Shown piece by piece: positions 1,576 to 33,029 of a DNA stretch of 33,814 nucleotides. Each line of letters starts with the position of its first letter. Position 1 is the first letter of the stretch. This DNA comes from a virus. Location of the stretch: positions 1 through 33,814 of IMG/VR virus record IMGVR_UViG_3300021963_000395. The stretch is one strand, 5' to 3'. The translations under genes were made by a program, and so were the position numbers. The notes below the pieces were generated by a model. It worked only from the letters and a program-made list of their open reading frames with translations, searched no databases and was not told where the DNA came from.

Positions 1576-2877
1576 TTAACCTAGTTCAATCGGAGACGCT
1601 AAAGCTTCACGGAAATAATTTAAGTATGTAGTTGCTTTGTTATAAGACTCTGCTTCAGGATCTTGCAAAGCCATTTCTCGCATTGCTAACTGTTGCTCTG
1701 CTTGAGATATCCCACCAGTAGTTGTAGAAGTTACTGTGTTACCACTGCGTACGCTTACGGTTTTTTCAGGAGATTGTTTATTAAATTTTTTAACAAGATA
1801 ATCTACATCTTCTTGACTTGCACCTTGACCAGTGTACTCTTGAAAAAATGCATCAATGTTTAATTCAAGTTCTTCTGGAGTAAATACTCGCTTATTAATG
1901 TTAACGGTACGGCGAGGTAGTCCACCGCCACCGTTTTGATCATACTGTTTATTTAATTCACCTTTATAAGCTTTTAAGAAATCAGAAAAACTTATAGGTT
2001 TTTCACCTGTTCTAACAGCAGTAGCATTAAAATAAGTTCCAAATTGAACTGCTCTTAAAACTAAATCTCTTGTATTTGGATCTATTCCGTACTGTGAATT
2101 TTGACCCTTGTTTGCTTGAGCCATAGCTACTTGATCTGCTGGTGAGCTTGCAATTGTACTTGTTACAAGTAGGTCGCGAAGCTCATTCATTTTTCCAGCG
2201 TTAGCGTATTCATTTAGAATACGACTTACGGCTTCGTTTTGAGTTTCAGGACTTCCATTTTCTTTTTGATAAATTGAACCAACAGAATTTGCAAAAAAGG
2301 AAATAGGAGTCATTGCTGTATCTTGTTTCCAGTAATGATCAAATGTTCCTGGAACAAGATCAAATGCGTTATTCCAACGGCTATTGTCTAGTGGATTAAC
2401 CTGAATATAAGTTGGAGCTACACCAGTTGCTGCAGTTTTTGCACGTTCAGTTGGCGTATCAGCACCACGAACAGCAGTATCTGTATAAGGATTAATTCCT
2501 CTTCCAACTGGATTTGAAGGTCTGTCGGTATACCTTTTTACGGTGCTACTTTGTTTTCCAGTTTCAGAATCAACTTCAACTCCAGCACTTCTTAGTGCTG
2601 CATTTGCTTGATAATATTTACGCTTAGCTTCATCGTAAGCTTTTTTATCTTCAACAGAGTTTGAGGCAGCATATTTATTAGCAGCTAAATCAAACTGTTC
2701 TTTTGCTTGAGTTTGTTCTAATCTTAAAGAATAAAGAGATAGCTCCAATTCCATGGTTGCTTGGTCTCTACCAGAAGTTTTTCCTCGTTCTTCGCGAGCT
2801 TTGTCTTCTGCTGCTTTTTTAGCTTTTCTTTCAGCTTCCCTACGTCTGGCATCTTCTAATGGATCATACTCAGCCAT
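1576..2877 (-). CDS. Putative internal virion protein with N-terminal coiled coil (433 aa)
   Basis: The N terminus is a highly charged helix (residues about 5-35, rich in Arg/Glu/Lys/Ala) followed by a second long helical stretch (about 40-95), typical of a coiled coil. A Pro/Gly/Thr-rich linker follows (115-155), then a globular part with many aromatic residues. Near the C terminus are a Gly run (GGGG) and a Thr/Ser-rich patch (TSTTTGG) before a helical tail. No enzyme motif is visible. The ATG overlaps the stop of the 1744-residue gene by one base (TAATG). Large helical proteins directly downstream of portal in phages without a tape measure are often internal core or ejection proteins; I infer that here but cannot name a family. 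Confidence 0.75.
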   Translation of the reverse strand: MAEYDPLEDARRREAERKAKKAAEDKAREERGKTSGRDQATMELELSLYSLRLEQTQAKEQFDLAANKYAASNSVEDKKAYDEAKRKYYQANAALRSAGVEVDSETGKQSSTVKRYTDRPSNPVGRGINPYTDTAVRGADTPTERAKTAATGVAPTYIQVNPLDNSRWNNAFDLVPGTFDHYWKQDTAMTPISFFANSVGSIYQKENGSPETQNEAVSRILNEYANAGKMNELRDLLVTSTIASSPADQVAMAQANKGQNSQYGIDPNTRDLVLRAVQFGTYFNATAVRTGEKPISFSDFLKAYKGELNKQYDQNGGGGLPRRTVNINKRVFTPEELELNIDAFFQEYTGQGASQEDVDYLVKKFNKQSPEKTVSVRSGNTVTSTTTGGISQAEQQLAMREMALQDPEAESYNKATTYLNYFREALASPIELG

Positions 2878-5800
2878 TATTCATTTCTCCAAATTCCAGC
2901 GTTAGCATCTCTTGTTTTAGCATTAATTAATTTCTTTAATCCATAATTGTAATATTGCTCAATTGTTCTTGTCGGATCAGATTTAATAAGTTCTTTAATA
3001 GCATTAACTGTTTTTTCTTTTTCAGCTCGCTTTAATTCTGTGCCATTAGCAGCATTTAAAGAATCAATGTAATCTGTTGTAAGTATAAAATTTGTGTACA
3101 AATTGTAAGCGGTGGCAATATTTAATTTAACATCTTCTGAAACATCTGCGTCAGGAGAGTTTATGTAATTGTAAGCATCATTTACAAAGTTGTAAGCTTC
3201 TGTTTTATCAGAGTTTTGAATGTAGTATTCTAAACCTGGAACACTTAACTTTAAATCCTTTTTTAATTGGTCATATTTTTGCGTTAGCGCACGACGCTCT
3301 GCAGTGTAATGCAATGGTGTGGCTTTAAGTTCCGCTGCTTCTTGCTCATCTAAATCATAGTAAGCATTAACATATTCTTGCATGTAAACTTTTTCATAAA
3401 ATTTATCAATGTCTACATTCTTTGCAATACCAGCTGCTGAAGCCCATTGCCAAACACCAGGACTAAACTCGCCAATTTTAGGAGCAAAGAGTAGCGCACC
3501 TGCACCATACTCGTCTACTGCTTTTTGGTTTGAAATTGTCCAGTCTTGCATTTCATTTGAATAGTTAACAATTGGTTGAATTTCTTTAGACTTCTTGGAT
3601 ACAAGATAAGCTACTTTACCTGGATTTTCACCAGTCCACGTAGCTAAAGCCATTTCGTAATGATCGTTAGCATCAGGATATTTTTCTTTAATTTGATCTA
3701 GTACTTCATAAAAACTTTCCTGCATAGAAACAATGCCGCTATCTAATAAATATTCAGGTATGTCTTTTGTATTTTTTGTTTGAACAGAAAACGGAAGAAT
3801 CATTCCAAGTAGTGCACGAGTAACAATAATATTATGTGCGCTAATGCGTAGATCTTTTAAGTAATTAAGCTTGTCTTGATTTAATAAAGCTTCATTAAGG
3901 CTTCCGTCTGGATACTTATACTTTTTGTCATTTGGATTAATGCCTACATTATTGGCTGCATTGTAACTAATGGCTTGAGTTAAAGCAGAAATTTCCTGAG
4001 TTGATTGCTCATCAACATTTAACATAGACCATACATTGCGAGCAAACTTTGGAGTTAATGATTTACCAACGGTTGGATTATCACCCATTGTTCCAAGAAA
4101 CCAATTGTCTAAATCTTCAGCAACATTTTTTGTTTCTTTAAATGGCATTAAACCAAGAATTGATTTAGCTGCAACAACAGAAAGAGAACCCATAGGTCCA
4201 GAAAGATAAGGCATACCTGCGTCATCCTGGAACGAAGGATTACCAGCAGTTAATTTAAAAGTAATATCATTAAACAATGGTTGATTAATAGATGCTTGAT
4301 CATTAGTTAGTGTGCGAAGAGTAGTATCTACTGCGCTATAAATAACATCATCCATTGGGAGTACAACATACTTGTTACCATCGTCATCAGTATGAACATC
4401 ACCAACTGCATCAAGACCTTGATTCATTAAACGCAAACGATAAATAACATCAAGCGGATGATCTTTAACTAACCGATACATACGACGATGGAAGTCTTCA
4501 ACTGCACGATAGAAACGACCAACTGTTCGCATGTTATAGGCAAATACAGTTTGCATAGCAGGGTTATCAGAAAACTTTAATACGTGTGCTGCAGCATCAT
4601 TAATCGCTTTGTTAGTAAAAAACTTTGCAGCTTGCTCTCTAGTAAATTCTTGATTTCTTCTAATTACAGATTCTGGAGCAAGTATGTTTTCTTCTAGCCA
4701 AGCACTATGCAAATCATCAGCCATCTTTAATTCTGTTGCTGCGTATTGTTCGCGGAATGCAATGTAATGCATGTGAGTTACTGGCATACGAGTAATAGCA
4801 TCAGTTTGACGAGCCATTAAATCAAATGCTTGATCTTGACCATATCTTTGAATTGCGGTTCTTAGATCAGTTGCAACACCATCAAATTTAATATCGGTCA
4901 TAATATGACCTTGAACTTTAAATCCTTTAGTGGCTTCTACATAATCTTCAAAACTAATGTCACCCATAATCTTTCGGTGATCTTTACCTTTTACAACATC
5001 TTGAAACAGTCCAGCTAGTTTAGGATTAAAAACTTCTGATCCACCATGAAATGTAACATAAGTATCTGATAGACCTGCAAGAATAAACTCTTGCATTTTA
5101 CTTGCAGGATCAGGAAGTTTTTTTACTTGATCAAAGAAGCGACTTCCTTCCATAATACTTTTAACTTGATCTTCTTTGCCTACACCAATAACCCATTTGC
5201 CATCAGCGTTTTTAACAAATCCAGTTAAACGCATTAACTCATCAGTTGCTTTAGCCCAATCATCTGGAGAAAATCCAGCATTGTGCTTTAAAAATACTGA
5301 AGCAAAACTAAATCTTGTTACATCTTTTCCATTACGCGCTTCAAATCCTTTATCGTTAAAGATGCGAGTAAAGTTGCGGAACATTGCAATGTCGCGATGA
5401 GAATCTTTCATAGAAGAAACTTGAAAAGATCTAATTGCTCCTTGTGCGGTAAGACCAAGATTATCCATAGCCATATCTAATTGGCTATCAGTTAACAAAT
5501 CCGCAAACTCTTGCATGGCAGTTTTACCTTGCAAGCTATCTGTTACATTTTTCTGTGAGATGCTATGAAGAACCTGTGGATTTTCCATTACAAGTTGCTT
5601 AAACCATCTAGTTTGAGATGAAGATAGTTTTGTTCCATGCATAAAAATTGCTGCATCAAGAATTGTTTCAGCAATCATTTCATCTTGTTTCCAAGCTGGA
5701 AGATCTTTGTTATTTTCTAAAACATCTTTACGAACTCTAGCCCGTGTCTCTTGGCTGATAGATCTAGATGCACCAAAACTTCTACCAAGAGTTTTACCAA

Positions 5801-8111
5801 GAGTTTTATCTAATAAAGTTTCAACTCCAGCCTTAACTGGTCCAGCTCCAGACTTATCGCCCTCGCCTTTTGCAGCTCGCCAAATACGTTGATACTGTTT
5901 AGCAGTTCTAATTTTTCTTATCTGTCCACCCTTGGCGTACATTAAGAACATAAAACCTTCTTCAATTGCAGTACGAATACCCAACTGAGGAATAAGAGTT
6001 AGTGTAGTCCAAAGATCTGTACCGATTCCAGTTGCTCTAGTATTATAAGCTCCACCAATTAATTTTGGAATGTACTCAATTAAACTATCGTCTTTATCTT
6101 TCTTAAGAGACCTTGAAGCAACAAACTCTGATATACCTCTCCAGTCTGGAGCAGTAACAAAGTTTTGAAATTGAGAGGAATGTAGTGGTCCAGTTACGGC
6201 AAGGCTTAATGATTGACGAGTTATACCAGAGCGAGAAGGTATAGCTAGTTCTTCTGCAGTTGTCCAAGTATTTTTAGAACCAAAATGTAGTTCAAGTGCT
6301 TTGTCAATAAACTCTTGTCCACCATCCATGCCATGAATACCTTCACGACGCATAATCAATTCAAAGATAGAACGATGCATGGCAAATCGTTCAGACTGCG
6401 GAAGATATCTAAATTCAGCAGTAGCCATATCAGCAAGATCTCTGCGACCAAGAGCTAGAAAAGCTTGTTTATTAAAAACATCTATTGTTCTATCTAAATT
6501 TGCATCATCATGGTAAACAACAGAGCGACCTGGATGCAGTCTTGTTTGTCTTTCAATAAATCTTTGAAGTCTATTTTGTTTTTTATTGATTGCAATTTCA
6601 ATATCTAAAGGTTCATCGCTTAATAAACTTGATCTAATTTTTTGATAATCGTTTGTAGCATCAGCAATGCTTTCTTCTTTGCCAAGAAAAAAGTCTCTTA
6701 AATTTTGTTTAGCTTTAATAGTAGATTGACGAGAACGCTTAGAGTAAGCAACTCCTTCACGTGCATAAACAGTGCTAACTGTCTTGCCGCGAATTAATCT
6801 AGTCCATTCTTTTGCACCTTCGCCAAGAAATACCCGCTTAAAGCTGTCAAGATCAGTTACACCATAATCTAACCAAGTTTTAATGTCATCTGGAGATGCA
6901 ATGTCAGCATGATCTATTTCAATTTTTCTTGTAATCTGTGCAACTTGACTAGCTTTAGATGCTTTTTCTGCTTCAGTGGTTGCTTTAACAGCCATTGCTC
7001 CACCAAGTTCACCAATTAACTTAGTGTATCTACCATAGTAATTAGCAACTTCTGGTATACCAAGAAGCATATCAACGTCAGCACCAGACTTAACCATGTT
7101 AGCAAGTTTTTCTGCTTTGCTTGCACCCTTAATGACGGCAGAAGCACCAAGAGTTAAGTATGTTAATGGATCCATAAAGATCTGATAGGCAAAGTCAATG
7201 GCTCCAGAAACAGCACCAAATGCTGTTGCAGTCTCAGGAGTGTTTATTCCTAAACCGCGAGCAGCAATACGACCTGGAGATAGCTGTGCTCTTGAAAACT
7301 CACCAAGCATTACATTAAATGCTTCTTGATCATTAAACATTGAGTTAATTGCAGCAAGAATAGCTGGATCGTTTGGACCCCAAGCATCAATAATTTCACC
7401 AGGGGTATCGCCAGCAAGTACATGCATGGCTACAAAACTTTCAGCACCGCCATACTTGTTAACCAGTTCATCTGCGAGGGCATTATCGTAAAGATATTTA
7501 CCATCAAATGCTACTTCACCGTTATTGCGACTCCAAAATGATTCTTTATTAACAATAGAGTTCTGCAACATTGCACCAGGTGTATTAAGAAATCTACCAT
7601 ATTGAGTAGCTGCACCCATTAAAAACTGAAATGGACTTTTTGCTACATCACCATAGCTAATATTTCCATCGCCAGTACTGTCGCTAATGCCTAAAGCTTT
7701 ACGAACATCTTCATTTTGGATTAACACTTGACCATCATTTTTTTTAGAATAGTCAATTTTGTAATATGTTTTTAAAGCTTCTTGAAAACCAGGTTCAAGT
7801 TTATTAAAAGAATCTGCAGCATCTTTATTGCTCATCTTCATTAGCTGTTGGTGCTTGTCACGAACCTGCGCCCAATTTTCAATAAGGTTTTTTTCTTCAC
7901 GAGTTAATGCAGCTCGTGAACCAGCAGCATAAAGAGCTGGACTAACACGTGCAACAGTTGCATCTAATGTACGTTTAGCAGCGGTTGAAGGGTCGCTTTG
8001 AGTTTTATTAAAAATACTTTGAGGCTGGCTTAAACCCTGAAGTTCAGTTAAACCTTGAGGTTGACTTAAACCACTTTGTTCCTCTGGAAGTCCCATTGGT
8101 TGAATAGTCAC
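2877..8111 (-). CDS. Giant virion-associated protein (1744 aa)
   Basis: The largest gene in the window. Residues 1-35 are a Gln/Pro/Gly/Leu segment with a repeated G-L-S-Q-P-Q unit, a likely disordered tether. Residues 144-155 (DSTGDGNISYGD) fit an EF-hand-like calcium loop except for Thr at loop position 3. A small-residue, hydrophobic helical stretch lies around 295-330, and another near residue 1430, either of which could insert in a membrane. The remainder is long mixed helical sequence without a recognised catalytic triad. It is not an obvious tape measure: there is no long heptad-only or hydrophobic-repeat region. It follows portal by two small genes and overlaps both neighbours by one base. 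Giant proteins in this position in short-tailed phages are commonly packed inside the capsid and ejected; that assignment is inference. Confidence 0.8.
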   Translation of the reverse strand: MTIQPMGLPEEQSGLSQPQGLTELQGLSQPQSIFNKTQSDPSTAAKRTLDATVARVSPALYAAGSRAALTREEKNLIENWAQVRDKHQQLMKMSNKDAADSFNKLEPGFQEALKTYYKIDYSKKNDGQVLIQNEDVRKALGISDSTGDGNISYGDVAKSPFQFLMGAATQYGRFLNTPGAMLQNSIVNKESFWSRNNGEVAFDGKYLYDNALADELVNKYGGAESFVAMHVLAGDTPGEIIDAWGPNDPAILAAINSMFNDQEAFNVMLGEFSRAQLSPGRIAARGLGINTPETATAFGAVSGAIDFAYQIFMDPLTYLTLGASAVIKGASKAEKLANMVKSGADVDMLLGIPEVANYYGRYTKLIGELGGAMAVKATTEAEKASKASQVAQITRKIEIDHADIASPDDIKTWLDYGVTDLDSFKRVFLGEGAKEWTRLIRGKTVSTVYAREGVAYSKRSRQSTIKAKQNLRDFFLGKEESIADATNDYQKIRSSLLSDEPLDIEIAINKKQNRLQRFIERQTRLHPGRSVVYHDDANLDRTIDVFNKQAFLALGRRDLADMATAEFRYLPQSERFAMHRSIFELIMRREGIHGMDGGQEFIDKALELHFGSKNTWTTAEELAIPSRSGITRQSLSLAVTGPLHSSQFQNFVTAPDWRGISEFVASRSLKKDKDDSLIEYIPKLIGGAYNTRATGIGTDLWTTLTLIPQLGIRTAIEEGFMFLMYAKGGQIRKIRTAKQYQRIWRAAKGEGDKSGAGPVKAGVETLLDKTLGKTLGRSFGASRSISQETRARVRKDVLENNKDLPAWKQDEMIAETILDAAIFMHGTKLSSSQTRWFKQLVMENPQVLHSISQKNVTDSLQGKTAMQEFADLLTDSQLDMAMDNLGLTAQGAIRSFQVSSMKDSHRDIAMFRNFTRIFNDKGFEARNGKDVTRFSFASVFLKHNAGFSPDDWAKATDELMRLTGFVKNADGKWVIGVGKEDQVKSIMEGSRFFDQVKKLPDPASKMQEFILAGLSDTYVTFHGGSEVFNPKLAGLFQDVVKGKDHRKIMGDISFEDYVEATKGFKVQGHIMTDIKFDGVATDLRTAIQRYGQDQAFDLMARQTDAITRMPVTHMHYIAFREQYAATELKMADDLHSAWLEENILAPESVIRRNQEFTREQAAKFFTNKAINDAAAHVLKFSDNPAMQTVFAYNMRTVGRFYRAVEDFHRRMYRLVKDHPLDVIYRLRLMNQGLDAVGDVHTDDDGNKYVVLPMDDVIYSAVDTTLRTLTNDQASINQPLFNDITFKLTAGNPSFQDDAGMPYLSGPMGSLSVVAAKSILGLMPFKETKNVAEDLDNWFLGTMGDNPTVGKSLTPKFARNVWSMLNVDEQSTQEISALTQAISYNAANNVGINPNDKKYKYPDGSLNEALLNQDKLNYLKDLRISAHNIIVTRALLGMILPFSVQTKNTKDIPEYLLDSGIVSMQESFYEVLDQIKEKYPDANDHYEMALATWTGENPGKVAYLVSKKSKEIQPIVNYSNEMQDWTISNQKAVDEYGAGALLFAPKIGEFSPGVWQWASAAGIAKNVDIDKFYEKVYMQEYVNAYYDLDEQEAAELKATPLHYTAERRALTQKYDQLKKDLKLSVPGLEYYIQNSDKTEAYNFVNDAYNYINSPDADVSEDVKLNIATAYNLYTNFILTTDYIDSLNAANGTELKRAEKEKTVNAIKELIKSDPTRTIEQYYNYGLKKLINAKTRDANAGIWRNE

Positions 8112-8517: not shown

Positions 8518-8766
8518 CTAATCCTCTTCTTCTTCTTCAACAAAATCATTTTCTAATGCATGTTGGATTAATCCAGTTACATGCCATATTGGTGACTTAT
8601 CATCAAATATTGTGCTTGCCCAGTATTGACCGTCACCATCAAAAAATTCTGCGGTAACAAAATACGTAGTACAAAATGCGCCATCTTGATGAAATGTGTG
8701 ACCATACTCATCAAGTAGGTCTTTTAACTTACTTCTAAATAATGCTAAGCGTTCTTCTTCTGTCAT
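8518..8766 (-). CDS. Small acidic hypothetical protein downstream of portal (82 aa)
   Basis: Compact protein with an N-terminal helix (residues 3-20), a beta-rich aromatic middle (YFVTAEFFDGDGQYWAS), and a Glu/Asp-only tail (about the last eight residues). The ATG sits inside the end of portal (ATGA overlap of four bases), so it is translationally coupled to portal. The shape, alternating strands then a helix and an acidic tail, suggests a small regulatory or adaptor protein that may contact DNA-binding partners or the portal. I do not recognise a family. Confidence 0.75.
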   Translation of the reverse strand: MTEEERLALFRSKLKDLLDEYGHTFHQDGAFCTTYFVTAEFFDGDGQYWASTIFDDKSPIWHVTGLIQHALENDFVEEEEED

Positions 8767-10514
8767 GCCCCGCCACCCAGACGAGCTAGAATACTAGCAA
8801 CATCTGGTGGTGGTCCTGCTGGCTGACCTTCTGGTCCTGCAGGTGCAGGTTGAGGTGGAGCACCCTGTTGCATTCCTTCAGGAGCTTGAGGTTGTTCAGG
8901 CATACCTGGAGCTTCTTCTACTTCAGCTTCTTCTTTCTTAAAAATTTCCATAACAGCATCTTCAATTGAAGTGCCCTTCTTCTTCATATCGATTACCGTA
9001 GCAATTTTTTCGATGATATCTGAAGGATCAGTTCCATTAGCTGCCATTTGTGGAATAGCTTGCGTTAGTGCTCCAATAGAACCAGCAAGAGCATCACGCA
9101 TTCGCTCAACATCAATGCGATCTTTTTCAAGACCAACATTCATGCTCCAAGGTAGTTCGCTCATTACAAACTCACGGGATAACAATCCAGCCTGTAGAGC
9201 CTGTAGCGAGAAGATAAGAGCACGTGATGGATCAAGTCCAGCCATAACACCATAACGAACCTGAATGCTGTAGTCGTTCTTGATGTCCTTAGAAGGCAAG
9301 TAAGTAATTTCGTATGGTGCACCTTGATAAACACCAGACATTAACTTTTCTTCATCAAACAAGGTCTGGTCAATGTGGAAGCAAAGCTCCATAACCTTCT
9401 GGAATGTTTCAGCAAGAATCTGCTGTCCAGCCTTTACCTGCGAATCAAAGCCACCAAGAAGTGCTTGAACTCCAGAACCTGTAATAATAGACGCATCAAT
9501 GTTACCTGATCTTCCCTCTGGGTAACGAGCACCCATACGCATTTCTTGCTCAAGCAGTTGCTGTTCCGTAAATGCACCAGTAGGTAGTTCAAGAGCTACA
9601 CGACGAACACCAGCAGGGTTGTTTGTGCGGATAACAGAATCAGGACCAAAGGCAAATTCAGATACATCGTTAGGAAGAACCAAAGGAGCTTGTACAGATT
9701 TTTCTGCAGCTTCCATAGCCAACATGCTAAAGCGAGCACGAGCAATCTGTGCCCACAATACATCGTCAAACTGACCACGTGGATCATCTAGATCAAGTCC
9801 TGGACGACGTGCAACAATTACGGAAAGCTTACCAATTGGATTCTTTGCCCTACGAAGAATTAGATTTCCACGTTGTGGCAAGAACAAAAGAACTTGATCT
9901 GCATCTTCATAGCGCATTAGTTCCATATTGGTATCAAGATCTCGCATGTCGCGACCTAGATCTCCAATAATTGCACGTTCGTATTCAGGAAAGTCAACAA
10001 TTAATTCACGAATTGTTTTAATATACTTCTTGCTAAAAGATACACAGCGACCAAAACGATCAAACTCTGGGTAAGAACCCATTGGATTTTCTACACGAAT
10101 GCGTGGCATCTTTGCTTCAAAGTCAGCGTCAACAAAGATTGGCAAGAAACCATAGGTTAGATACCAGTCAGCACCTGTATACATCTGTGTCTGAAAGTTA
10201 GAAAACTCAACGTAGTTGTTAGCAATAATGGTTCTCTTGTCTGAGAACTTCTTTGCCTTGTCAGAGTTAATGTTTGCAGTTGAACAGTTAAACGAAGGAA
10301 GTGGGGCAAGAACTTCGGCAATGTCACGAGCAGCAACATCAACAAAGTTGGCAATCATTGGACGAGACATGCCCTCTGGGAACATATCTGGGTAGACAGA
10401 CTCCATGTTGCCACGTCGAACAGCAGTAATATCTGCCATTCGGAAGTCACGTTCTGCGTAACGACGGGTAAGAGCTAATACCTTGTTAGTTACTTGCTCA
10501 GTTGATAATGCCAT
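8763..10514 (-). CDS. Portal protein (583 aa)
   Basis: The portal forms the dodecameric ring at the capsid vertex through which DNA is packaged and ejected. It lies directly after large terminase (8-base gap), the classical order, and has the usual size. The N-terminal part has the helical and beta pattern of portal wings (for example NVESVYPDMF-like, FVDVAARDIAEVL). A central stretch (about 290-380) carries the alternation of a beta strand, a Ser/Gly-rich loop and long helices expected for clip and stem. The C-terminal 60 residues are Pro/Gln/Gly/Ala-rich and disordered, as in several actinophage portals. A good AGGAAA ribosome site precedes the ATG. Identification rests on position, size and general pattern, with no single diagnostic motif. 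Confidence 0.85.
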   Translation of the reverse strand: MALSTEQVTNKVLALTRRYAERDFRMADITAVRRGNMESVYPDMFPEGMSRPMIANFVDVAARDIAEVLAPLPSFNCSTANINSDKAKKFSDKRTIIANNYVEFSNFQTQMYTGADWYLTYGFLPIFVDADFEAKMPRIRVENPMGSYPEFDRFGRCVSFSKKYIKTIRELIVDFPEYERAIIGDLGRDMRDLDTNMELMRYEDADQVLLFLPQRGNLILRRAKNPIGKLSVIVARRPGLDLDDPRGQFDDVLWAQIARARFSMLAMEAAEKSVQAPLVLPNDVSEFAFGPDSVIRTNNPAGVRRVALELPTGAFTEQQLLEQEMRMGARYPEGRSGNIDASIITGSGVQALLGGFDSQVKAGQQILAETFQKVMELCFHIDQTLFDEEKLMSGVYQGAPYEITYLPSKDIKNDYSIQVRYGVMAGLDPSRALIFSLQALQAGLLSREFVMSELPWSMNVGLEKDRIDVERMRDALAGSIGALTQAIPQMAANGTDPSDIIEKIATVIDMKKKGTSIEDAVMEIFKKEEAEVEEAPGMPEQPQAPEGMQQGAPPQPAPAGPEGQPAGPPPDVASILARLGGGA

Positions 10515-10522
10515 TTAATTTC

Positions 10523-12415
10523 CTAGTATAGACCTGACAATGATTCCATTGCCATTTCGTCAAGGTTTACAATACCTTGCATAGCAACATTTCTTCTGGT
10601 TGCCCACTTGTTATTTGCATGAGCCGTTCTAAAATTACTTTGTTGAATTAATTCTTTTGCTCTAATCTCACAGAACCATAGTGCCATAACACAGTCGGTT
10701 GGTCCTTTAGTATCAGCTTTCCAAGTGATTAATTGGTTAACCAAAGCCTTAACATGCTCATTAGAGTTATCAGGAAGCTCAATAAGGTTATCTTTATTGA
10801 ACTTTCCTTCACGCATACTACCAAACAAAGATGACATGGCAGCTACACCAAAGTTAACATCCCACTTGTTCTTGCTGGTAAAGTGTTCCCGCAGTGCCGT
10901 ACCACGGCTGGCAAGCCACATTCGTAGCTGATCATCAAGCGAGAAAGCTTTCTGATAAGCGTTAATTTCAATGCGTAGCTCTTGAGGTTTGTATTCCTCT
11001 ACCCATTCTTTGATTAAGCTATCAATCTTCTGTGGCGTAGATTCAGCCATGTTATGCACATCAAGTACATACCGCTTGTTAGTCTCTCGGTTAATTGCAT
11101 AGACAACCATGGCGGTTTTGCCAGACATGGCAGGATCGAGTCCCATGATAACAAACCAAGAACCCTCTGGTTTTGGGTGACCAGGAGCATTAAAGTTAAG
11201 TCTACCAGTCTTACGCATTCGGTTAATTGAACCGTTCACAACAGGAAGTGGAAATATTGCATCTTCCTCAACATCTTGCTGCTGGTAAACAAGTGCCCAC
11301 GTGGAGGGACTAACTTCGCTACGACGCTCAAACAGTCGCCTACCGTCCCACTTTACAAAGTGCCCGTTTTCATCGGGTGTAAGCAATTCTGGATCATCAA
11401 ACTCGTCAGCCCCATCCAGCGGTCTATCAGACCTAGCCCAGAGTGTCTTCCACTTCTCAGGCTTATCGTCAAACTCAAGTACAGCTGGCATGGCTAGGTA
11501 GGTGAAAGGTGACCTACCACCAGTCCAGTGTTCTGGATTTCTAATTTCTTTATATAGATCTACGGAGGAAACTCTAGTCCCTGCAATCAGAAGCGTCCCA
11601 GTCGAACCCACACGGGTAACTACCATCTTCTGCAACCAGTTGAGCTGCTTCTCCCATTCGTGCGCGTTTGTCGTTGAGACAATATCGTCCATGATGATTA
11701 GATCCGCACGAGTACCGTAGATCTGTTGTCCAATACCAAGAGCTTGAACCGTCGGGTCCTTCTCTCCTGATTCGCGTTCGAGATAAATTCTGTCTGCAGT
11801 CCATTGGTCTGCCGTCTCCTTGTAGCCCCCTGGGGGTCCATACACCTGTTGCATCTTAAGCCATGGCTCTTCAGTCATGCGCTGCTTCAAGGAATACAAG
11901 AACTCCTTGGCGCGTGTCTGGGTCTGGGAAATAATAACAATGCGAATATTTGGGTTAAGAGCAATTTTGTACATGGCGTAGTTAACCGTCATGGTGGTTG
12001 ATTTGGCGTGTTCAGGTGGCACGTTAATCAATAACCTACGGCGATTACCCTGCTCAAACGTCATGGAAGGGTGTTGCCACGTCGGGTCACGACCCTCAAG
12101 AACGTCAATCCAGTTTTGCTGATGAGGGAATACCTCGGTGTTCAAGAACTCTCTGGAGAACGTGGCAAAATCAATTTTATGTTTATTTTCACCTAGTGAA
12201 GCAGCAATGGCATCTGATCCAAAGTTGGAAGCTTCCTCAACCTGTGCCGCAAATTCCCCATCTAAAAGCCAGGTTCTAAGCGAGGTCTTCTTCTTGCCAA
12301 CAGCAGCAAGGGCGGAATCCATATCTATGCCCTGCTTGAGAAACGAAATAAACTTTCTCTGATCTTCAATTTGCCGAAGTCTGGTGTGGTGTTGATCGCC
12401 AGCTTTAGCAGCCAT
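10523..12415 (-). CDS. terL: Terminase large subunit (630 aa)
   Basis: Motor ATPase and nuclease that packages DNA into the prohead. Residues 20-55 form a helix-turn-helix-like N-terminal segment. The ATPase has a variant Walker A (PPEHAKST, 133-140), a Walker B (ADLIIMDD, 237-244, with acidic pair) and a motif III (LLIAGTR, near 276). The C-terminal RNase H-like nuclease begins at LDPAMSG, with later acidic residues in ELRIEIN and TDCVMALWF, matching the three-acid pattern of the family. I use the ATG at 12415 (MAAKAGDQ), which has a weak TTAGG upstream; an alternative start at 12478 would run through a GC hairpin and encode an odd Ile/Thr-rich leader. It is the first gene of the leftward operon. 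No small terminase was recognised; the N-terminal HTH may partly serve that role. Confidence 0.95.
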   Translation of the reverse strand: MAAKAGDQHHTRLRQIEDQRKFISFLKQGIDMDSALAAVGKKKTSLRTWLLDGEFAAQVEEASNFGSDAIAASLGENKHKIDFATFSREFLNTEVFPHQQNWIDVLEGRDPTWQHPSMTFEQGNRRRLLINVPPEHAKSTTMTVNYAMYKIALNPNIRIVIISQTQTRAKEFLYSLKQRMTEEPWLKMQQVYGPPGGYKETADQWTADRIYLERESGEKDPTVQALGIGQQIYGTRADLIIMDDIVSTTNAHEWEKQLNWLQKMVVTRVGSTGTLLIAGTRVSSVDLYKEIRNPEHWTGGRSPFTYLAMPAVLEFDDKPEKWKTLWARSDRPLDGADEFDDPELLTPDENGHFVKWDGRRLFERRSEVSPSTWALVYQQQDVEEDAIFPLPVVNGSINRMRKTGRLNFNAPGHPKPEGSWFVIMGLDPAMSGKTAMVVYAINRETNKRYVLDVHNMAESTPQKIDSLIKEWVEEYKPQELRIEINAYQKAFSLDDQLRMWLASRGTALREHFTSKNKWDVNFGVAAMSSLFGSMREGKFNKDNLIELPDNSNEHVKALVNQLITWKADTKGPTDCVMALWFCEIRAKELIQQSNFRTAHANNKWATRRNVAMQGIVNLDEMAMESLSGLY

Positions 12416-12465
12416 AATAAACCTAATTATCCTAGTAATAGTAATACTATTAGTAATAATAGTAA

Positions 12466-12488
12466 GCAACCCCTCCAAAGGGGGTTGC
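12466..12488. terminator. GC hairpin in terminase leader
   Basis: GCAACCCC (12466-12473) pairs with GGGGTTGC (12481-12488), plus a T-G pair, around a 5-base loop. On the minus strand it is followed by the T-rich TTACTATTATTAC, not a true U-tract. It stands about 50 bases upstream of the terminase ATG. It could be an attenuator in the terminase leader or a block against leftward read-through; a functional terminator is not proven. Confidence 0.45.
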
Positions 12489-16143: not shown

Positions 16144-16460
16144 TGAGCATTAAAAACGAGCCGTGGTTTAACGACCCGTTCAAATGGTATGAAGACGAAC
16201 ATTATCCAGAGATTGTAGGTATACAAGTAACAGATAAAGTAGCCCTTGATTTTCTTCAAGCGTTATACCAAATTTACAAGTTACTTGAACGCAATGAAAG
16301 AGTAAAAGCTATGGAGGATGCCAAGCAACTAGCAATACTGCTACTAGCTAGTGCATTTGACTATGCTGAAGAAGCAATAGATGAACTAATTATTAGAGAA
16401 GTAGATGCAGTAGATATAGATGCTGCATTCGCAGAGATGATAGAGGAACAGAATGACTAG
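16143..16460 (+). CDS. Acidic helical hypothetical protein (105 aa)
   Basis: Strongly acidic, nearly all helical, with a long amphipathic helix (VALDFLQALYQIYKLLERNERVKAM begins near residue 33) and a second (AKQLAILLLASAFDYAEEAIDELI). It starts on the stop of its neighbour (TAATG) and overlaps the DUF932 gene by 8 bases, so the three genes form a coupled trio. The helix pair resembles a small dimerising adaptor. It could be a partner of the DUF932 protein, by position only. Confidence 0.75.
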   Translation: MSIKNEPWFNDPFKWYEDEHYPEIVGIQVTDKVALDFLQALYQIYKLLERNERVKAMEDAKQLAILLLASAFDYAEEAIDELIIREVDAVDIDAAFAEMIEEQND

Positions 16461-17433
16461 ACGTAATCCATACACAGTAATTGGTACGCACTGTGAGTAC
16501 GAAGTTAATTCAGCAAGTGACTTAATGAAACAGGCTGGACTTGACTGGAAAGTTACATTAGAAAATGTATTTATTAATGAGACTGATCCAATTGAAGTAC
16601 CAGATAGATACGCAACAGTTAAGTGGACTAATACAGGGTGGACTGACACAGACCCTACACCACTAGCAATAGTAGGTTCACGATACAAAGTACTGCAGAA
16701 CAGTGAAATATTCTCATGCCTTGACGACATTGTTCAGAACAGTGATGCACGTTATGGTGCAGCAGGTGAACTCAAAAACGGTAACGTAGTATGGGCAACC
16801 ATCGAACTACCAGCTAACGTAACAGTTGGTGATGATCCACACAATGCATATGTAATTGCACGTACATCACATGATGGTAGCTTACCATTCCAAATGACAC
16901 CAGTTGTCAATCGCATTGGTTGTACTAACCAGATCAATGCAGCAATGATGAGTGGTAAGAAGAAGGGTATTTACTACCGTGTAAAGCACAGCCCTAACAG
17001 CAGTATCAATGCAGATGATATCAGAAAAGCATTTAGAATTATGAATGAAGATATTCAAAAGTATGCAACAGTATCATCATACCTACGTTCAATTGAATTC
17101 AGTAATGAAGAGTTCAAGAACTTTATCAAGCGAGTGTATGCACTACCTAGCAAGATTGAGTTCTCACCATATGAGATGCTTAGTGCAGGTGAACGTACAA
17201 GTAAGACAAGAGTAGAACGAAATAGACTTAATGCATGGAACGTATGGATCGGTGAAACCGACACGCAACATAACATTAAGAACACCAAGTTCGGTGCATT
17301 CCAAGCTATCGTGGAAGCAACCGATCATTTTAGTAAGGACTATTCAAAGCAAGCAAGCAAGATGATTCTCGGCACAGACATAGCCGTAAAGTCACGTGCT
17401 CTACAACTATTAGGAGTAAACAATGGGTCTTGA
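16453..17433 (+). CDS. DUF932 phage/plasmid-like protein (326 aa)
   Basis: Belongs by sequence to the DUF932 family (phage/plasmid-like protein, LGT type), widespread in phages and plasmids near replication genes; its reaction is not established. Seen here: the N-terminal ATVKWTNTGW and PLAIVGSRYKVLQNSEIFS (typical of the family's 'x-V-G-x-R-Y-x-x-x-Q-N' element), PVVNRIGCTNQINAA, and the C-terminal RNRLNAWNVWIGET, which matches the conserved Trp-Asn-rich block. Length is normal for the family. The AGAGGAAC ribosome site lies inside the end of the previous gene. Position among early genes suggests a role in replication or host DNA handling. Confidence 0.85.
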   Translation: MTRRNPYTVIGTHCEYEVNSASDLMKQAGLDWKVTLENVFINETDPIEVPDRYATVKWTNTGWTDTDPTPLAIVGSRYKVLQNSEIFSCLDDIVQNSDARYGAAGELKNGNVVWATIELPANVTVGDDPHNAYVIARTSHDGSLPFQMTPVVNRIGCTNQINAAMMSGKKKGIYYRVKHSPNSSINADDIRKAFRIMNEDIQKYATVSSYLRSIEFSNEEFKNFIKRVYALPSKIEFSPYEMLSAGERTSKTRVERNRLNAWNVWIGETDTQHNIKNTKFGAFQAIVEATDHFSKDYSKQASKMILGTDIAVKSRALQLLGVNNGS

Positions 17434-19885: not shown

Positions 19886-20671
19886 ATGAAAACATTAAGT
19901 AGAGCAGTAGGTCGTCCTGACATTGGTGGTGAGCCAATGCCTACAGTATTCAGGACATTCGATGCAAACCAGATTGTATTGAGACGAGCAGAAGTAAGCA
20001 TGATTGCTGGTACACCAGGTGCTGGTAAGTCTACACTTGCTTTAGCTTTAGCGTTACGTATGCAAGCACCAACGCTGTACTTATCAGCAGATACTAATGC
20101 ACATACTATGGCTATGCGTTTGTATTCAATGATCACAGGAGTGTCACAAAGTGAAGCAGAAAAAATCATATCGGAAGACCCAATCAACTCTAGGAATAAT
20201 CTTGCTCTTGCCAGCCATATTTATTGGAGCTTTGATTCTGCCCCTAGTCTTAGTGATATCGACGACGAGGTTACCGCGATTGAGGAGTTACTTGGAGAAG
20301 CACCTGCCTTAATTGTTATTGATAACTTGATGGATATTAGTATGGATGGCGGAGAAGAATTCAGTAACATGAGGTCAGCACTTAAAGAACTTAAGTACTT
20401 AGCAAGAGATACTAACGCCGCTATCTTGGTATTACACCATACTCAAGAAGGCTATGTCGGAGAACCATGTCAACCAAGATCATCCTTACAAGGTAAGGTA
20501 GCACAGTTACCTGCGCTTATTCTTACCGTTGGACAAAGTGGTAATGGGTTACTAGGTGTAGCTGCAGTCAAGAACAGATATGGTAGAGCAGACCAGACTG
20601 GTAAGACACCAGTATGGTTACAATTTAATCCAGAGTATATGTTTATAGCTGACATGGAGGAAGCAAGATGA
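19886..20671 (+). CDS. RecA/DnaB-like ATPase, probable replicative helicase (261 aa)
   Basis: Contains a RecA-fold core only. Walker A is GTPGAGKS (42-49), Walker B ALIVIDNL (141-148), a sensor-like LVLHHTQE (181-188) and VKNRYGRAD (228-236), the region that in DnaB-type helicases carries the arginine finger and helicase motif H4. There is no N-terminal primase-interaction domain, so it is much shorter than DnaB (about 450 residues). It lies just upstream of the primase genes, consistent with unwinding DNA ahead of primer synthesis. Short RecA-like proteins of this type are common in actinophages; a recombinase role is the alternative. GGGAG precedes the ATG. Confidence 0.8.
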   Translation: MKTLSRAVGRPDIGGEPMPTVFRTFDANQIVLRRAEVSMIAGTPGAGKSTLALALALRMQAPTLYLSADTNAHTMAMRLYSMITGVSQSEAEKIISEDPINSRNNLALASHIYWSFDSAPSLSDIDDEVTAIEELLGEAPALIVIDNLMDISMDGGEEFSNMRSALKELKYLARDTNAAILVLHHTQEGYVGEPCQPRSSLQGKVAQLPALILTVGQSGNGLLGVAAVKNRYGRADQTGKTPVWLQFNPEYMFIADMEEAR

Positions 20672-24761: not shown

Positions 24762-25148
24762 TTAATTAGCCTTAATTTGCCGTCCATCAAGTACGATAGG
24801 TGCAGTACCGTCGTGGTCAATGAATAAACCAACTGGCATCTTGCCACCTGAAATAAACCCATGAGCTAGGGTTACCCAAATAGTTTTACCTGCCATCCCT
24901 GGATGGACAGGATAAGAGAAGTGACCAGTGTAGTCAGCTTGTGGTGTACCTGGATAACGACAAAAACGAAAGCGAATAACATTAGGTAGTCCACCACCTG
25001 GAAGTTCTACCTGTACGGTAGTCTCCCACATTAAACGTTTTTGACGCACCGAACCTTTCCAAGATGTCTTTTTATTAATACGTACAGGAATAGCTTTACC
25101 TGAAATAATAGATTGTTTATCTTTATTTGATTCTACTTTAGCTATCAT
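24762..25148 (-). CDS. Unknown protein of the lysis cassette (128 aa)
   Basis: Last gene of the leftward operon. Nearly all beta: Lys-rich start, then TTVQVELPGG, VIRFRFCRYPG, a Gly/Pro-rich stretch (TPQADYTGHFSYP), KTIWVTLAHGFISGG and a terminal strand pair. Its basic start and beta-sandwich look suit a cell-wall- or surface-binding protein. It overlaps the endolysin by one base (TAATG), so it may be a binding partner of the single-domain endolysin. No family is recognised; a tail or capsid decoration protein is another option. Confidence 0.7.
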   Translation of the reverse strand: MIAKVESNKDKQSIISGKAIPVRINKKTSWKGSVRQKRLMWETTVQVELPGGGLPNVIRFRFCRYPGTPQADYTGHFSYPVHPGMAGKTIWVTLAHGFISGGKMPVGLFIDHDGTAPIVLDGRQIKAN

Positions 25149-25549
25149 TATGCATCCAATGTTCTTTGAGGATCTACTGGTTTACTAGTGCTCCAGCGAG
25201 CACCATCTCTTTCACCGAAGTGAAGATGAGGGGCAGTGCTTTTACCTGTACTACCAGACAATCCAATTAGTTGTCCCTTTTTAATTTTCTCACCAGGTTG
25301 TACAAATATCTTTGATAGGTGTGCGTATACTAAGTGGTTCTTAGTACCTGCTGGAAATGTCCTGCGTTGTACGATGTGCTTGCCATAGTCAGCACCCCAG
25401 TTAGCTGATGTCGTTACACCACGACGTGCTGCATATACTGGAGTACCAGTCTTGCATACAAAGTCAACACCATCATGCCAACCAGATTTCCAAAGTCGTC
25501 CTCTCTTGCCATAAGGCACAGAGATCTTAACGTCTTTTACTGGATACAT
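25148..25549 (-). CDS. M23 peptidase endolysin (133 aa)
   Basis: Zinc peptidase that cuts peptidoglycan cross-links at lysis. The LytM/M23 motifs are complete: H-x-x-x-D (WHDGVDF, H25 and D29), YAHL (H77) and H-x-H (PHLHFGE, H108 and H110), with the Gly-Ser-Thr-Gly turn before it. There is no wall-binding domain and no signal peptide, so it relies on the holin and perhaps on the 128-residue neighbour for targeting. Single-domain M23 endolysins of this size are known. It overlaps both neighbours by one base (TAATG). A virion-bound peptidase is a less likely alternative, given the holin beside it. Confidence 0.9.
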   Translation of the reverse strand: MYPVKDVKISVPYGKRGRLWKSGWHDGVDFVCKTGTPVYAARRGVTTSANWGADYGKHIVQRRTFPAGTKNHLVYAHLSKIFVQPGEKIKKGQLIGLSGSTGKSTAPHLHFGERDGARWSTSKPVDPQRTLDA

Positions 25550-29169: not shown

Positions 29170-30069
29170 CTATCTTGTGAATCTAGTGCGAATTGGATTA
29201 CGATCATTAAGTTTTCTGCTTTCTTCTGCAAGTCGCTTTTCATAAAGAGCAAGAAGATACTTAGAAGTATTTGTACCTGCACCGTATGCACGACCTGCAA
29301 TCTGTGATTGTTGATCAGATTCAGCAGAGCCAAAAGTTAGACGACCTGGATCTACAAACGAAGATAGTCGTGCAGCAGCACCAAGAACAATTACATCTTT
29401 ACAAGATGATGGTAAACCAGTTACAGTTTCAAAGTCATCATCATTGCTATCCATTACAGTAGGTGCAGCACTGTAAGAAACTTGCACAGTACGACCTGGC
29501 TCAACGCCAGAGTAAATGCTTATGCTATTTCTAGAATTAAAAGTATCAACGTTAGCTGAAGAATCAAGTCGGTAACTACGAATAGGTAACCATTCTTTAG
29601 AAGGACCAGTAGTTTCAAATGATACTGAGTAAATAGTTTCAGCTTCATTTGGTAGTGCATATGTAGTTTTAGCAGGAGAGTAAGAAAATGTATGTGTAGC
29701 AATTGTGTATAAATCTGGAAAGGTAGCTTCAAGAGTTTCATTAATTGCTCCCTTGATATCTATGGTAGGGAATGTAGGAGAAATAATTACACGTGCACCA
29801 TTCTGGTGTGTAGCAGCAGATGTACCATTGTACCCTCTACCATATGGCGGAATACTAAGTACACCAGAGTTACGATCATACGAATCTACATAGATAAGTT
29901 CATCATCAATTTGGATTACACCACTTGAAATATTCTGTGCAGAAGCAACAGTAATACTAGTTGCCGTTGCATTAACGGCAGCAGTAAGATGTGTTTGACG
30001 ATCTTGACGCAGTGTAAAACCTGCTAACTTACGTGATACCTCATCAGTCATTTGACCAAACGTAGCCAT
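29170..30069 (-). CDS. Head-tail connector or tail-adaptor protein (299 aa)
   Basis: The start (FGQMTDEVSRKLAGF) is a helix, followed by a beta domain (residues 28-97) with TSITVASAQ, VIQIDDELIYV and YGRGYNGTSAATHQNGARV. It then has a helix (IDIKGAINETLEATFPDLY), a beta region and a final helical end with basic tail (RTRFTR). The middle helix motif, I-K-x-x-I-N-E-x-L, fits the gp11-like or neck-adaptor pattern in short-tailed phages. The beta domain is similar to the attachment domain of the fibre. Located right after the 890-residue protein. The connector call is an inference. Confidence 0.6.
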   Translation of the reverse strand: MATFGQMTDEVSRKLAGFTLRQDRQTHLTAAVNATATSITVASAQNISSGVIQIDDELIYVDSYDRNSGVLSIPPYGRGYNGTSAATHQNGARVIISPTFPTIDIKGAINETLEATFPDLYTIATHTFSYSPAKTTYALPNEAETIYSVSFETTGPSKEWLPIRSYRLDSSANVDTFNSRNSISIYSGVEPGRTVQVSYSAAPTVMDSNDDDFETVTGLPSSCKDVIVLGAAARLSSFVDPGRLTFGSAESDQQSQIAGRAYGAGTNTSKYLLALYEKRLAEESRKLNDRNPIRTRFTR

Positions 30070-32741
30070 TAATTACCCTTCATAAATTGTTGTAAATATT
30101 CTTCAATAGCTTTGCGACCATCTGCGGTTAAAGCCCGACTACCAATACCAGCAAATTCCTTAAACTTAGGTGGCAAGTCTGAATCTACAAACTTTTTACC
30201 ATCCCATTTAAACCAAGACTTTTTAGCTTGATCAAACACATAAACAGGTACTCCCTTATCAATACCCATTTGCACAGCCCAACGAGTACCACCAGTAGCT
30301 TTAAGCAAATTAGGTTTAAGTATTGAAACAGCAATAACAGCTTCTGCATCTTTAACTTGATAGTAATTTCTACGAAGTAAATTAACATGATTATAAGTAA
30401 GTGAAGCAGGATTGTATGATTCACTTAATCCCTTACTAGCTTGCTTTAAGAATTTATCTGCTACTTCAAGTTGTTCTTTAGTTAATTCATTGCGAGTTTC
30501 TAGAGCTGGTCTAGTCTTAGAAATTATACGATCATGGTCTTTGTAACTATGACCAATTGTTTTAATGCCCATAGAGTCAGCAATTTCTGCCCATGCAGTA
30601 TCAGCACCATCAGCCATACCAGAGTGTATAGTAATTTCTGAAGCATTAGGTACTTCTACTTTAGGTGCTGATTCTTTTTTAGTTGCAGCTTGCTTAGCTT
30701 CAATGCGAGCTTTACGAGCTGCATCTTCTTTAGCAAGACGAGTATTCATTCCAGCTTTTCGCTGTGCTCCCTTTTCAATACCTTGATCAAGTTTTAATTT
30801 ATTAACATAGTTAATAATTCTTTTCTTAAGAGCAGGATCTTTTGTCTGCTCTGCAAGATCATCAATAAGATTAATTAAAGCTTGTCTGTTAATAGGATCT
30901 ATTTTACCTGTTGCAACACGATTCATAAATCTACGAATACCAGTATCATCAAGTTGCTTAGAAAGTTCTTTAGTTCTTTCCCAAGCAGTCTCTTGTATTT
31001 TACGAAGTCTATCTACTTCATCTTGATATTCCTTCATACGTTTTTCATATTTCTCTACGTTTAAAGTACCATCATCATTCTTAAATTCTTTTTTATTTTT
31101 TAATTGTTTTCCATAATCTTCAGAACCCTTAACAAAATCTTTAGATTCTCTTGCAATAATGTTTTCAACATGTCTTACGCGATCAGCTACGTTCCGTGTT
31201 GATGGTGTACCCTTAGGGGTTGCAGGAGTGCGCTTAATTGGAATACGAACATCTTGCATTTTAAATACAGTATCAGCTAAATCTATTTGCTCTTGTCGTG
31301 CTGCACCTTTAGGAGCAGTAAAACCAAGTATCCTAGATCTTTCTTGAATTGCTTTACGCGCTTGTTCAACTGCTTTTGCATATAGTTTTTGCTGGTCAGG
31401 AGTTTTAGCTTTACGTAAATTATCCATAGCATTATCTAGGTCAGCTTTTAACTCATCCATTTCAGCACGTCCAGATTGACTTGGAGCTATGCCGCTTTTT
31501 CTTGGCTCAAGTGGAATAAAATCAGTATCAACTTTAAGACTTGTACCACCTTGAAAAGTAGAAGCTTCAAAATCTATTGCTGCTTTATTTTCTTCTGCAG
31601 TTAATGCTTCATCTTGTTTGTCTATGCGTTGACGATCTTTAGATACTTTCTTTGGTCGCATAGGAAGCGATGCAATTAATCTTTCTTCTGCAGTAACAGG
31701 AGCTTGTTTGCCAGCAGCAACTGCTGCATAAGATCTAATCGTAGCAACTGTTTCATCACCATAAACATCATCATAAAGTTTAGTAAAGAACTTATGATTC
31801 TTTTGGAAGTAAGATTGCAACTCTATTAGTTCATTATTAATTTCGGTAACAGGAGTTACGGCATCTGGATTTTCAGGATCAACTACTGAAGATCTATTTT
31901 CTTTGCGTAAAGCTAAATTCTTTTCATCATCTTTAAGTTCTTTAGTATCTTTTCTAAAACCTTTTGCATCTTCTGCTTCTTTTAATTGCTTGGCTAAGAT
32001 TCGATACCTAGAAATTTTTTCTAAATAGTCATCAACAAAGTCAACAGGGTTTGACTCTGGACCCATGTTATCTTTTCGTGGCTTACCCTTGGCAGGACTA
32101 CCAGATGTTAAACCTTCAACTTCAGGTTCAGTAGGTTCACTATAGTTACCTTTTTGTTTACCTGTTTTTCTATCAATAGTTTCATCGGTAAGATTTCTTT
32201 TTCTAAGACTGCCACCCTCGCGCTTTAATTGTCTTTCCGCTAATGGGGTAGGAACAGCTCTTACATCTACTTCGCGTATATTAGGAACAGAATAATCTAC
32301 TTCAGGTTCTGGACCAGTAATCTTTTCAAATCTTTGTTCACTCATTGGACGAGTTGGAACTTCGGGCTCTGGAGTTTTACCGTAAGTTAACTTACCACGT
32401 CTAACTAATTCAGCTTCAACTTCTGCTCTAGTTTTACCTGCAACTTTAGCTGCAACAGGCAATACATTACCAGCAGCACTTACAGTTTTAGTTTCAGCTA
32501 AAACTTTTCTAAGAGCTTTAGTTCCTAACTGACCTATTTTTGCAGGAGGAATAAAAAATGTAGCAGCAGTTACACCGACTAGTGCAGCATCTCCCCATGT
32601 TCCTTTACCGCTAAGAATTTTTTTAATTGACTCAACGCCAAATAAAAAATCTAAAACTTCCCATGCAGCATCAGAGCCTTCGGTATTGACTATGTTTGTG
32701 CCACGGTACTGATCTACTGGTGGTGCTATTGGATTAGCCAT
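30069..32741 (-). CDS. Large virion-operon protein with C-terminal permuted SLOG domain (890 aa)
   Basis: The N-terminal 120 residues include two hydrophobic helices (AALVGVTAATFFIPPA). Residues 120-690 are long charged helix and disordered linkers, Lys/Glu/Arg-rich. The last 188 residues are a nucleotide-binding SLOG-like domain: HSGMADGADTAW (706-717), LLRRNYYQVKDAEAVIAVS (788-806), ATGGTRWAVQMGI (815-827), VPVYVFDQ and at the end FAGIGSRALT (863-872). In the usual order GIGSR comes first; here it is last, so the domain is circularly permuted. The same permuted arrangement occurs in other phage and bacterial proteins. It sits in the tail operon, so it may be packaged and ejected. Ligand unknown. 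Confidence 0.75.
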   Translation of the reverse strand: MANPIAPPVDQYRGTNIVNTEGSDAAWEVLDFLFGVESIKKILSGKGTWGDAALVGVTAATFFIPPAKIGQLGTKALRKVLAETKTVSAAGNVLPVAAKVAGKTRAEVEAELVRRGKLTYGKTPEPEVPTRPMSEQRFEKITGPEPEVDYSVPNIREVDVRAVPTPLAERQLKREGGSLRKRNLTDETIDRKTGKQKGNYSEPTEPEVEGLTSGSPAKGKPRKDNMGPESNPVDFVDDYLEKISRYRILAKQLKEAEDAKGFRKDTKELKDDEKNLALRKENRSSVVDPENPDAVTPVTEINNELIELQSYFQKNHKFFTKLYDDVYGDETVATIRSYAAVAAGKQAPVTAEERLIASLPMRPKKVSKDRQRIDKQDEALTAEENKAAIDFEASTFQGGTSLKVDTDFIPLEPRKSGIAPSQSGRAEMDELKADLDNAMDNLRKAKTPDQQKLYAKAVEQARKAIQERSRILGFTAPKGAARQEQIDLADTVFKMQDVRIPIKRTPATPKGTPSTRNVADRVRHVENIIARESKDFVKGSEDYGKQLKNKKEFKNDDGTLNVEKYEKRMKEYQDEVDRLRKIQETAWERTKELSKQLDDTGIRRFMNRVATGKIDPINRQALINLIDDLAEQTKDPALKKRIINYVNKLKLDQGIEKGAQRKAGMNTRLAKEDAARKARIEAKQAATKKESAPKVEVPNASEITIHSGMADGADTAWAEIADSMGIKTIGHSYKDHDRIISKTRPALETRNELTKEQLEVADKFLKQASKGLSESYNPASLTYNHVNLLRRNYYQVKDAEAVIAVSILKPNLLKATGGTRWAVQMGIDKGVPVYVFDQAKKSWFKWDGKKFVDSDLPPKFKEFAGIGSRALTADGRKAIEEYLQQFMKGN

Positions 32742-33029
32742 TTACCATTTTGCCTTATCTGCCCAGTATGCTGCGGACATTTTACCTTTAGAAATATTCT
32801 TTGCGTGACGTGCTTTGAATGATCGTCTACGTGCAGCATAGGCTGCTGACTCCCCTGATTTCTTAGGGGAGCCAGACACACCTTGCTGACCAAAGCGAAT
32901 AGTCTTAACCTGTTCGCCAACTTTAGCCACAACAACGTGTGACTTAGTGGGATGGTTAGGTGTACGCTTTGGCTGATTAAAGCCAGAAACACCTGCACGT
33001 GCTAAACGTGGATCTTTCTTAGCTACCAT
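32742..33029 (-). CDS. Small basic phage protein with conserved C-terminal motif (95 aa)
   Basis: Very basic. Its features are PRLARAGVSGFNQPKRTP, then HVVVAKVGEQVKTIRFGQQG, and a C-terminal ARRRSFKARHAKNISKGK with SAAYWADKAKW. The pattern R-R-x-S-F-x-x-R-H ... A-x-Y-W-x-x-K is familiar from small proteins of many marine and freshwater phages whose role is unknown. The basic helix and conserved Trp end suggest a nucleic-acid-contacting structural protein. It directly precedes the 890-residue gene. Confidence 0.75.
   Translation of the reverse strand: MVAKKDPRLARAGVSGFNQPKRTPNHPTKSHVVVAKVGEQVKTIRFGQQGVSGSPKKSGESAAYAARRRSFKARHAKNISKGKMSAAYWADKAKW

Follow-up and report, generated by a model that had tools for sequence, protein, structure and literature searches.

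Several described systems resemble parts of the locus reported here. Polyvalent proteins are large phage proteins of the portal-terminase class that are thought to be packaged and injected and that bear varied effector domains (Iyer et al., 2017, PMC5512222); neither SLOG nor NADAR turned up when its text was searched. In the viral network built around nicotinamide adenine dinucleotide (NAD) and ADP-ribose, SLOG, NADAR, macro and DUF4326 domains are predicted to act on ADP-ribose signals, and fusions have been reported (Iyer et al., 2022, PMC9503650); that work describes the SLOG, NADAR, macro and Nudix domains of viruses as typically stand-alone, and macro, NADAR and Nudix as packaged, SLOG not being named among the latter. 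Anti-Thoeris phage proteins such as RyDEP degrade or sequester 2'/3'-cyclic ADP-ribose, members of one family doing either (PMC13232231). The locus that we describe lies in 33,814 nucleotides of viral DNA (positions 1 to 33,814 of IMG/VR record IMGVR_UViG_3300021963_000395, the whole of which we call the window). It is a minus-strand open reading frame (ORF) of 890 residues (30069..32741), here called the carrier, made of a conserved N-terminal segment, a long charged linker and a C-terminal permuted SLOG domain. Between sister phages, the C-terminal end of this protein varies in the ADP-ribose-related domains that it bears, and in more distant phages the SLOG domain sits in two other ORFs of the head/packaging operon.

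Like polyvalent proteins, the carrier is a large virion-operon protein whose family bears several, varying effector domains, but here the variation lies in a small cassette on a single scaffold and is seen between close sister phages. Unlike the typically stand-alone viral SLOG of the NAD-ADP-ribose network, the SLOG domain is fused within a virion-operon ORF; the RyDEP-type proteins differ from SLOG in fold, and the available part of the report on them describes no packaging (PMC13232231). Injected multidomain proteins are already published, as are viral fusions of SLOG, NADAR, macro and DUF4326 domains. Slot-like swapping between close phages and relocation of SLOG among virion-operon ORFs had no precedent in the literature searched, which covered few subscription papers, and both appear to be new within it.

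No Pfam family scored above cut-off on the whole window protein, so that the SLOG domain (about residues 697-890; 30072..30653, minus strand) would escape routine Pfam annotation. Carrier residues 700-846 match phrog_768 ("DprA-like DNA recombination-mediator," E 4e-11), and a tblastn search of 50,697 phage records returned relatives of the carrier C-terminus only, in 42 records; IMG/VR yielded 210 SLOG relatives. Because a search of solved structures with the SLOG family profile gave only chance matches, a fold search was needed. The AlphaFold2 model, built on 77 relatives, is a confident Rossmann-like alpha/beta fold (predicted local distance difference test, pLDDT, 94.8; predicted template modelling score 0.89), and its best sensible Foldseek match in the PDB is 3IMK (probability 1.00, target template modelling score, TM, 0.64), deposited as a putative molybdenum carrier and which we take to be a cpYpsA protein. 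The other matches, mostly generic Rossmann proteins with TM near 0.3, were set aside. We regard the SLOG fold assignment of the carrier C-terminus as practically certain. A first-pass annotation, made from the letters alone, had proposed this fold and a permuted strand order, and the sequence and model bear it out: the frame is open for 890 codons, the motifs HSGMADGAD, GGTRWA, VPVYVFDQ and FAGIGSR follow one another as it had listed them, the predicted fold is Rossmann-like and not of another kind, and the permuted order can be read in the window protein and in all aligned relatives.

Unpermuted SLOG families begin with the G.GSR strand. The corresponding G.GxR strand sits last in the window SLOG and in every aligned relative, and alignment to the Pfam profiles of YAcAr and DprA starts at profile positions 28 and 73, as expected of a permutation. 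Since the permuted order is common to the whole phage family, permutation alone is not novel, and we discarded it as a claim of novelty. The cpYpsA family (PF12694), going by its Pfam name, presumably also has the G.GxR strand at the C-terminus. A comparison with cpYpsA had been proposed in the first-pass annotation, and kinship held for strand order and for the structural match to 3IMK, while the sequence score fell short: the window domain is about 40 residues longer than 3IMK, the window protein gave no PF12694 match even at E 1, and the best relative (E 0.005) was below cut-off. By Pfam score, the domain is therefore placed outside cpYpsA. The relatives give weak matches to YAcAr, DprA, cpYpsA and LDcluster4; for DprA/Smf (PF02481), scores were 13.7-19.4 bits against a cut-off of 29.6, and the order is permuted. 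No cpYpsA sequence was found in the bacterial genomes that hold relatives, with control genomes equally silent, so that this absence carries no weight. The bacterial SLOG relatives come mostly from Flavobacteriaceae. The phrog_768 proteins are direct sequence relatives of the window domain; they stand alone in large phages, whereas the window domain ends an 890-residue virion-operon protein.

The C-terminal end of the carrier behaves as a slot. From the neighbouring SU10-type adaptor gene (29170..30069, minus strand; PF24175, E 1.4e-6, above cut-off), we gathered 80 IMG/VR loci and examined the ORF directly upstream in each. In 19 of them it contains the carrier's N-terminal segment (about residues 1-150; 32292..32741, minus strand), with or without SLOG, one of the 19 being a copy identical to the window's (L012). 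The C-terminal cassette held none of the domains sought in seven carriers, NADAR in two, SLOG in four and SLOG with NADAR in three; one each had SLOG with DUF4326, a macrodomain with DUF4326 and SLOG, and DUF4326 with a macrodomain (near-copies, L141/L161 and L130/L131, are included in these counts). NADAR (E near 1e-30) and DUF4326 (E 1e-12 to 1e-17) exceed their Pfam cut-offs; the macrodomain is NCBIfam A1S_2505, whose model (pLDDT 92.9) matches the TARG1 and DarG macrodomains, many of them solved with ADP-ribose. The exchange is sharpest between two 39-kb records from different samples, L112 and L117, whose carriers are 98% and 99% identical on the two sides of an in-frame insert of about 560 nt—the SLOG domain. 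L126 and L116 differ by a SLOG at the C-terminal end, and L116 and L141 (about 80% identical) by NADAR. In the adaptor-lineage records searched, all six NADAR and all SLOG domains were part of the carrier ORF or, for L140, of a truncated ORF that occupies its position. Several varying effector domains on one virion-operon protein, as in polyvalent proteins, are thus a property of the carrier family; the window copy, the only one in its record, has one recognised effector domain, and a second SLOG, NADAR or DUF4326 was sought elsewhere in the window and not found. That sister phages have NADAR, DUF4326 and macrodomain in this very C-terminal slot backs a link to ADP-ribose, where the first-pass annotation had speculated about an NAD-derived host signal.

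About 28 other loci, most of whose adaptors share over 80% identity with that of the window, lack a carrier directly upstream of this gene, and a whole-record search of the carrier-less loci tested found it nowhere else. Given its absence from many near-complete sister genomes, the carrier is an accessory gene. The earlier description of it as a probable virion protein encoded in the tail operon stands insofar as the gene is packed inside the virion-structure operon; as a core tail component, it was rejected on the same absence. In L163 and L164, the slot upstream of the adaptor is taken by a 348-residue protein resembling a family-2 glycosyltransferase.

The SLOG domain also appears to have changed its host gene. 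In phages further removed but alike in gene order, whose terminases and portals are about 52-58% identical to those of the window, a single SLOG lies inside a homologue of the 1744-residue protein encoded downstream of the portal (window 2877..8111) in L018-L025, and in an ORF of 555-577 residues between terminase and portal in L031, L034 and L035; ct2KA10 is without SLOG and has an ORF of 90 residues at the carrier's place. Each record holds one SLOG, across three different ORFs of related phages. On the SLOG tree (in which rows L090 and L091 are viral contigs), the three carrier groups each form a single clade, B and C joining at 97/92 and A, B and C, less firmly, at 94/58. As far as sequences can tell, this pattern fits one lineage-borne domain moved between virion-operon genes, although the SLOG of group A may be an independent gain. 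A separate small DUF4326 ORF (about 94-103 residues) occurs in the same genome as SLOG in L018, L022, L031 and L034.

Beyond this lineage, tblastn found relatives in the jumbo phages 121Q, RaK2 and Atu_ph07, in Cr30, in the crAss-like cr109_1, cr113_1 and cr130_1, and in Klebsiella phage Pylas. About half of 80 IMG/VR SLOG loci have the domain inside ORFs of 500 to 4500 residues, some of which also hold NADAR, DUF4326, an AlkB-like oxygenase or a helicase. In Pylas, SLOG lies in a linker of the virion RNA polymerase, and KpCHEMY26, MY01 and SP076, 79-92% identical on both flanks, are without it at that insertion point; the Schitoviridae virion RNA polymerase is an ejection protein (PMC10925440). 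The crAss-like SLOG carriers are giant proteins, which may be likened in kind to the giant RNA polymerase-associated proteins detected in crAss001 virions by mass spectrometry (PMC10172136). In the giant ORF of cr114_1, the C-terminal end appears by eye to be an ASCH-like domain where cr109_1 has SLOG, and C-terminal swapping may extend to the giant crAss proteins.

We propose that the carrier is an accessory cargo protein made alongside the virion structural proteins. Its conserved N-terminal segment and charged linker would anchor it inside or on the surface of the particle, and the C-terminal end would accept exchangeable domains with binding or cleaving activity towards ADP-ribose-type nucleotides, the domain plugged in by the window phage being the permuted SLOG. 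The protein would travel in the virion and enter the cell with the DNA, and the injected domain would sequester or process a host-made ADP-ribose derivative before any phage gene is expressed; candidates are a cyclic ADP-ribose signal or the ADP-ribose placed on DNA by DarT-like toxins. The partners found in the same slot are ADP-ribose domains, and it is on this ground that we read the carrier as bringing in a binder or processor of an ADP-ribose-type nucleotide. The two kinds of antitoxin known to strip ADP-ribose from DNA are NADAR and DarG-type macrodomains (PMC11833690), and a part in protecting the DNA of the phage has been proposed for phage NADAR (PMC11125620). By analogy with ejected proteins, the carrier is probably carried in the virion, and a counter-defence role related to ADP-ribose is slightly favoured; to the account as a whole, a virion-carried plug-in ADP-ribose module whose component steps are not independent, we give an even chance.

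Several observations weigh against this account. The case for packaging comes from operon position and from analogy to the virion RNA polymerase and crAss cargo, and the SLOG domain's own link to ADP-ribose comes from its association with partner domains. The hydrophobic stretch of the N-terminal segment, described below, is modest (19-residue Kyte-Doolittle mean 1.39). Many sister genomes are without the carrier, which is accordingly dispensable for building the particle and might be a cytoplasmic product of late infection. Where LOG enzymes have their catalytic Glu, the window and 60 of 77 relatives have Gln (3 have Glu), and the stand-alone relatives lie near nucleotide-metabolism genes, as a metabolic role would also have it.

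The carrier could thus be made late and act in the cytoplasm against abortive-infection signals, unpackaged although encoded in a structural operon. Its accessory nature agrees with this, as do the many relatives, including those of 121Q, RaK2, Atu_ph07 and Cr30, that are stand-alone proteins of 180-200 residues, many in jumbo phages. Such a role leaves unexplained why SLOG is joined to an extended, conserved N-terminal part and why the domain occurs within a virion RNA polymerase and giant crAss-like proteins, both of the ejected kind. A related SLOG also lies inside the large protein downstream of the portal, and we consider the late cytoplasmic role rather unlikely.

The residues of the domain bear on both the preferred cargo account and a metabolic one. 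Eight positions (G708, G712, D714, R791, G818, T819, W843 and G867) are invariant in 77 of 77 SLOG sequences and five more (S707, N792, Q795, G817 and R869) are kept in all but one; the window SLOG retains all 13, and the conserved pocket suggests binding of a nucleotide-type ligand. The ratio of nonsynonymous to synonymous substitution rates (dN/dS) in SLOG between relatives is 0.15 to 0.5, which points to purifying selection. The LOG phosphoribohydrolase motif is GGxGTxxE, with a catalytic Glu, whose position we take to align with the Gln of GGTRWAVQM in the window; the window SLOG lacks the motif. Glu occurs there in a sister group with the same carrier (L116, L141, L161 and L158). The segment reads WAVEM or WAAEM at protein coordinates 527-539 of L116, 541-553 of L141 and 929-940 of L158, and WAVQM in the window group. 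From these letters, one group may bind and the other catalyse. A metabolic enzyme without a defence role, either a nucleotide N-glycosidase or a salvage enzyme, would agree with stand-alone relatives encoded near thymidylate synthase, NAD synthetase and deoxynucleoside monophosphate kinase and with the cleavage of nucleotides by LOG-type SLOG proteins (PMC9503650). We think it quite improbable: Gln replaces the catalytic Glu in most members, and gain, loss and swapping among close relatives fit conflict better than housekeeping.

A DprA-like role, in which the domain binds incoming single-stranded DNA or aids recombination, has in its favour the name of phrog_768, a weak Pfam DprA match of the window domain (E 6e-4, below cut-off) and the helicase and AlkB-like domains of some giant carriers, but the permuted order and the match to 3IMK (cpYpsA, as we assume) lie nearer cpYpsA and the same-slot partners are ADP-ribose domains and not recombination proteins, and we hold it to be very improbable.

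The surroundings of the carrier are those of a virion-structure operon. The upstream neighbour (32742..33029, minus strand; phrog_7595) abuts the carrier start and has a weak match (E 1.4e-5) to phrog_220, "minor head protein and DNA pilot"; downstream, the adaptor start codon overlaps the carrier stop codon, as read in the sequence, and a collar/fibre gene comes next after the two. Within the N-terminal segment, a moderately hydrophobic stretch, VGVTAATFFIPPAK, falls within residues 52-70, and the segment is a possible virion-docking or membrane-active part. The charged linker (about residues 151-690; 30672..32291, minus strand; K 12%, E 9%, D 8%, R 8%) varies among sister phages. Further along the minus strand, the block 8763..12478 holds the portal (8763-10514) and the terminase large subunit (10523-12478), the pair between which the SLOG-bearing ORF lies in L031 and L034. 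The 1744-residue protein (2877..8111, minus strand) has no Pfam or PHROG match and is possibly a second virion cargo protein. Elsewhere in the window are a DUF932 protein (16453-17433, E 4e-37) in a rightward gene block, a RecA/DnaB-like P-loop ATPase (19886-20671; AAA_25, E 3.5e-18), probably of replication, and a 133-residue protein (25148-25549) that resembles an M23-type peptidase by eye (HDGVDF...HLHFGE), probably of lysis or the tail.

Defences based on ADP-ribose (Thoeris, DarTG and their kin) can act before a phage expresses its counter-genes, so that pre-loaded counter-proteins are an attractive, little-tested idea. In its furthest form, which we offer tentatively and hold to be doubtful, a virion-borne docking protein would have a rapidly exchanged ADP-ribose-domain slot selected by the ADP-ribose-based defences of local hosts, and permuted SLOG, moving between virion proteins and into virion RNA polymerases as well, would represent a new class of injected signal sponge or hydrolase and would block immune signalling ahead of all phage gene expression. 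Nature has supplied pairs that stand one domain apart—L112 and L117 for SLOG, L116 and L141 for NADAR, and, among isolated phages, Pylas with KpCHEMY26 or MY01 for the SLOG of the virion RNA polymerase—and these make the question of preloading directly testable. That SLOG, NADAR, DUF4326 and a DarG-like macrodomain have a slot in common also points to a possible function for many phage proteins now labelled "DprA-like" or unknown.

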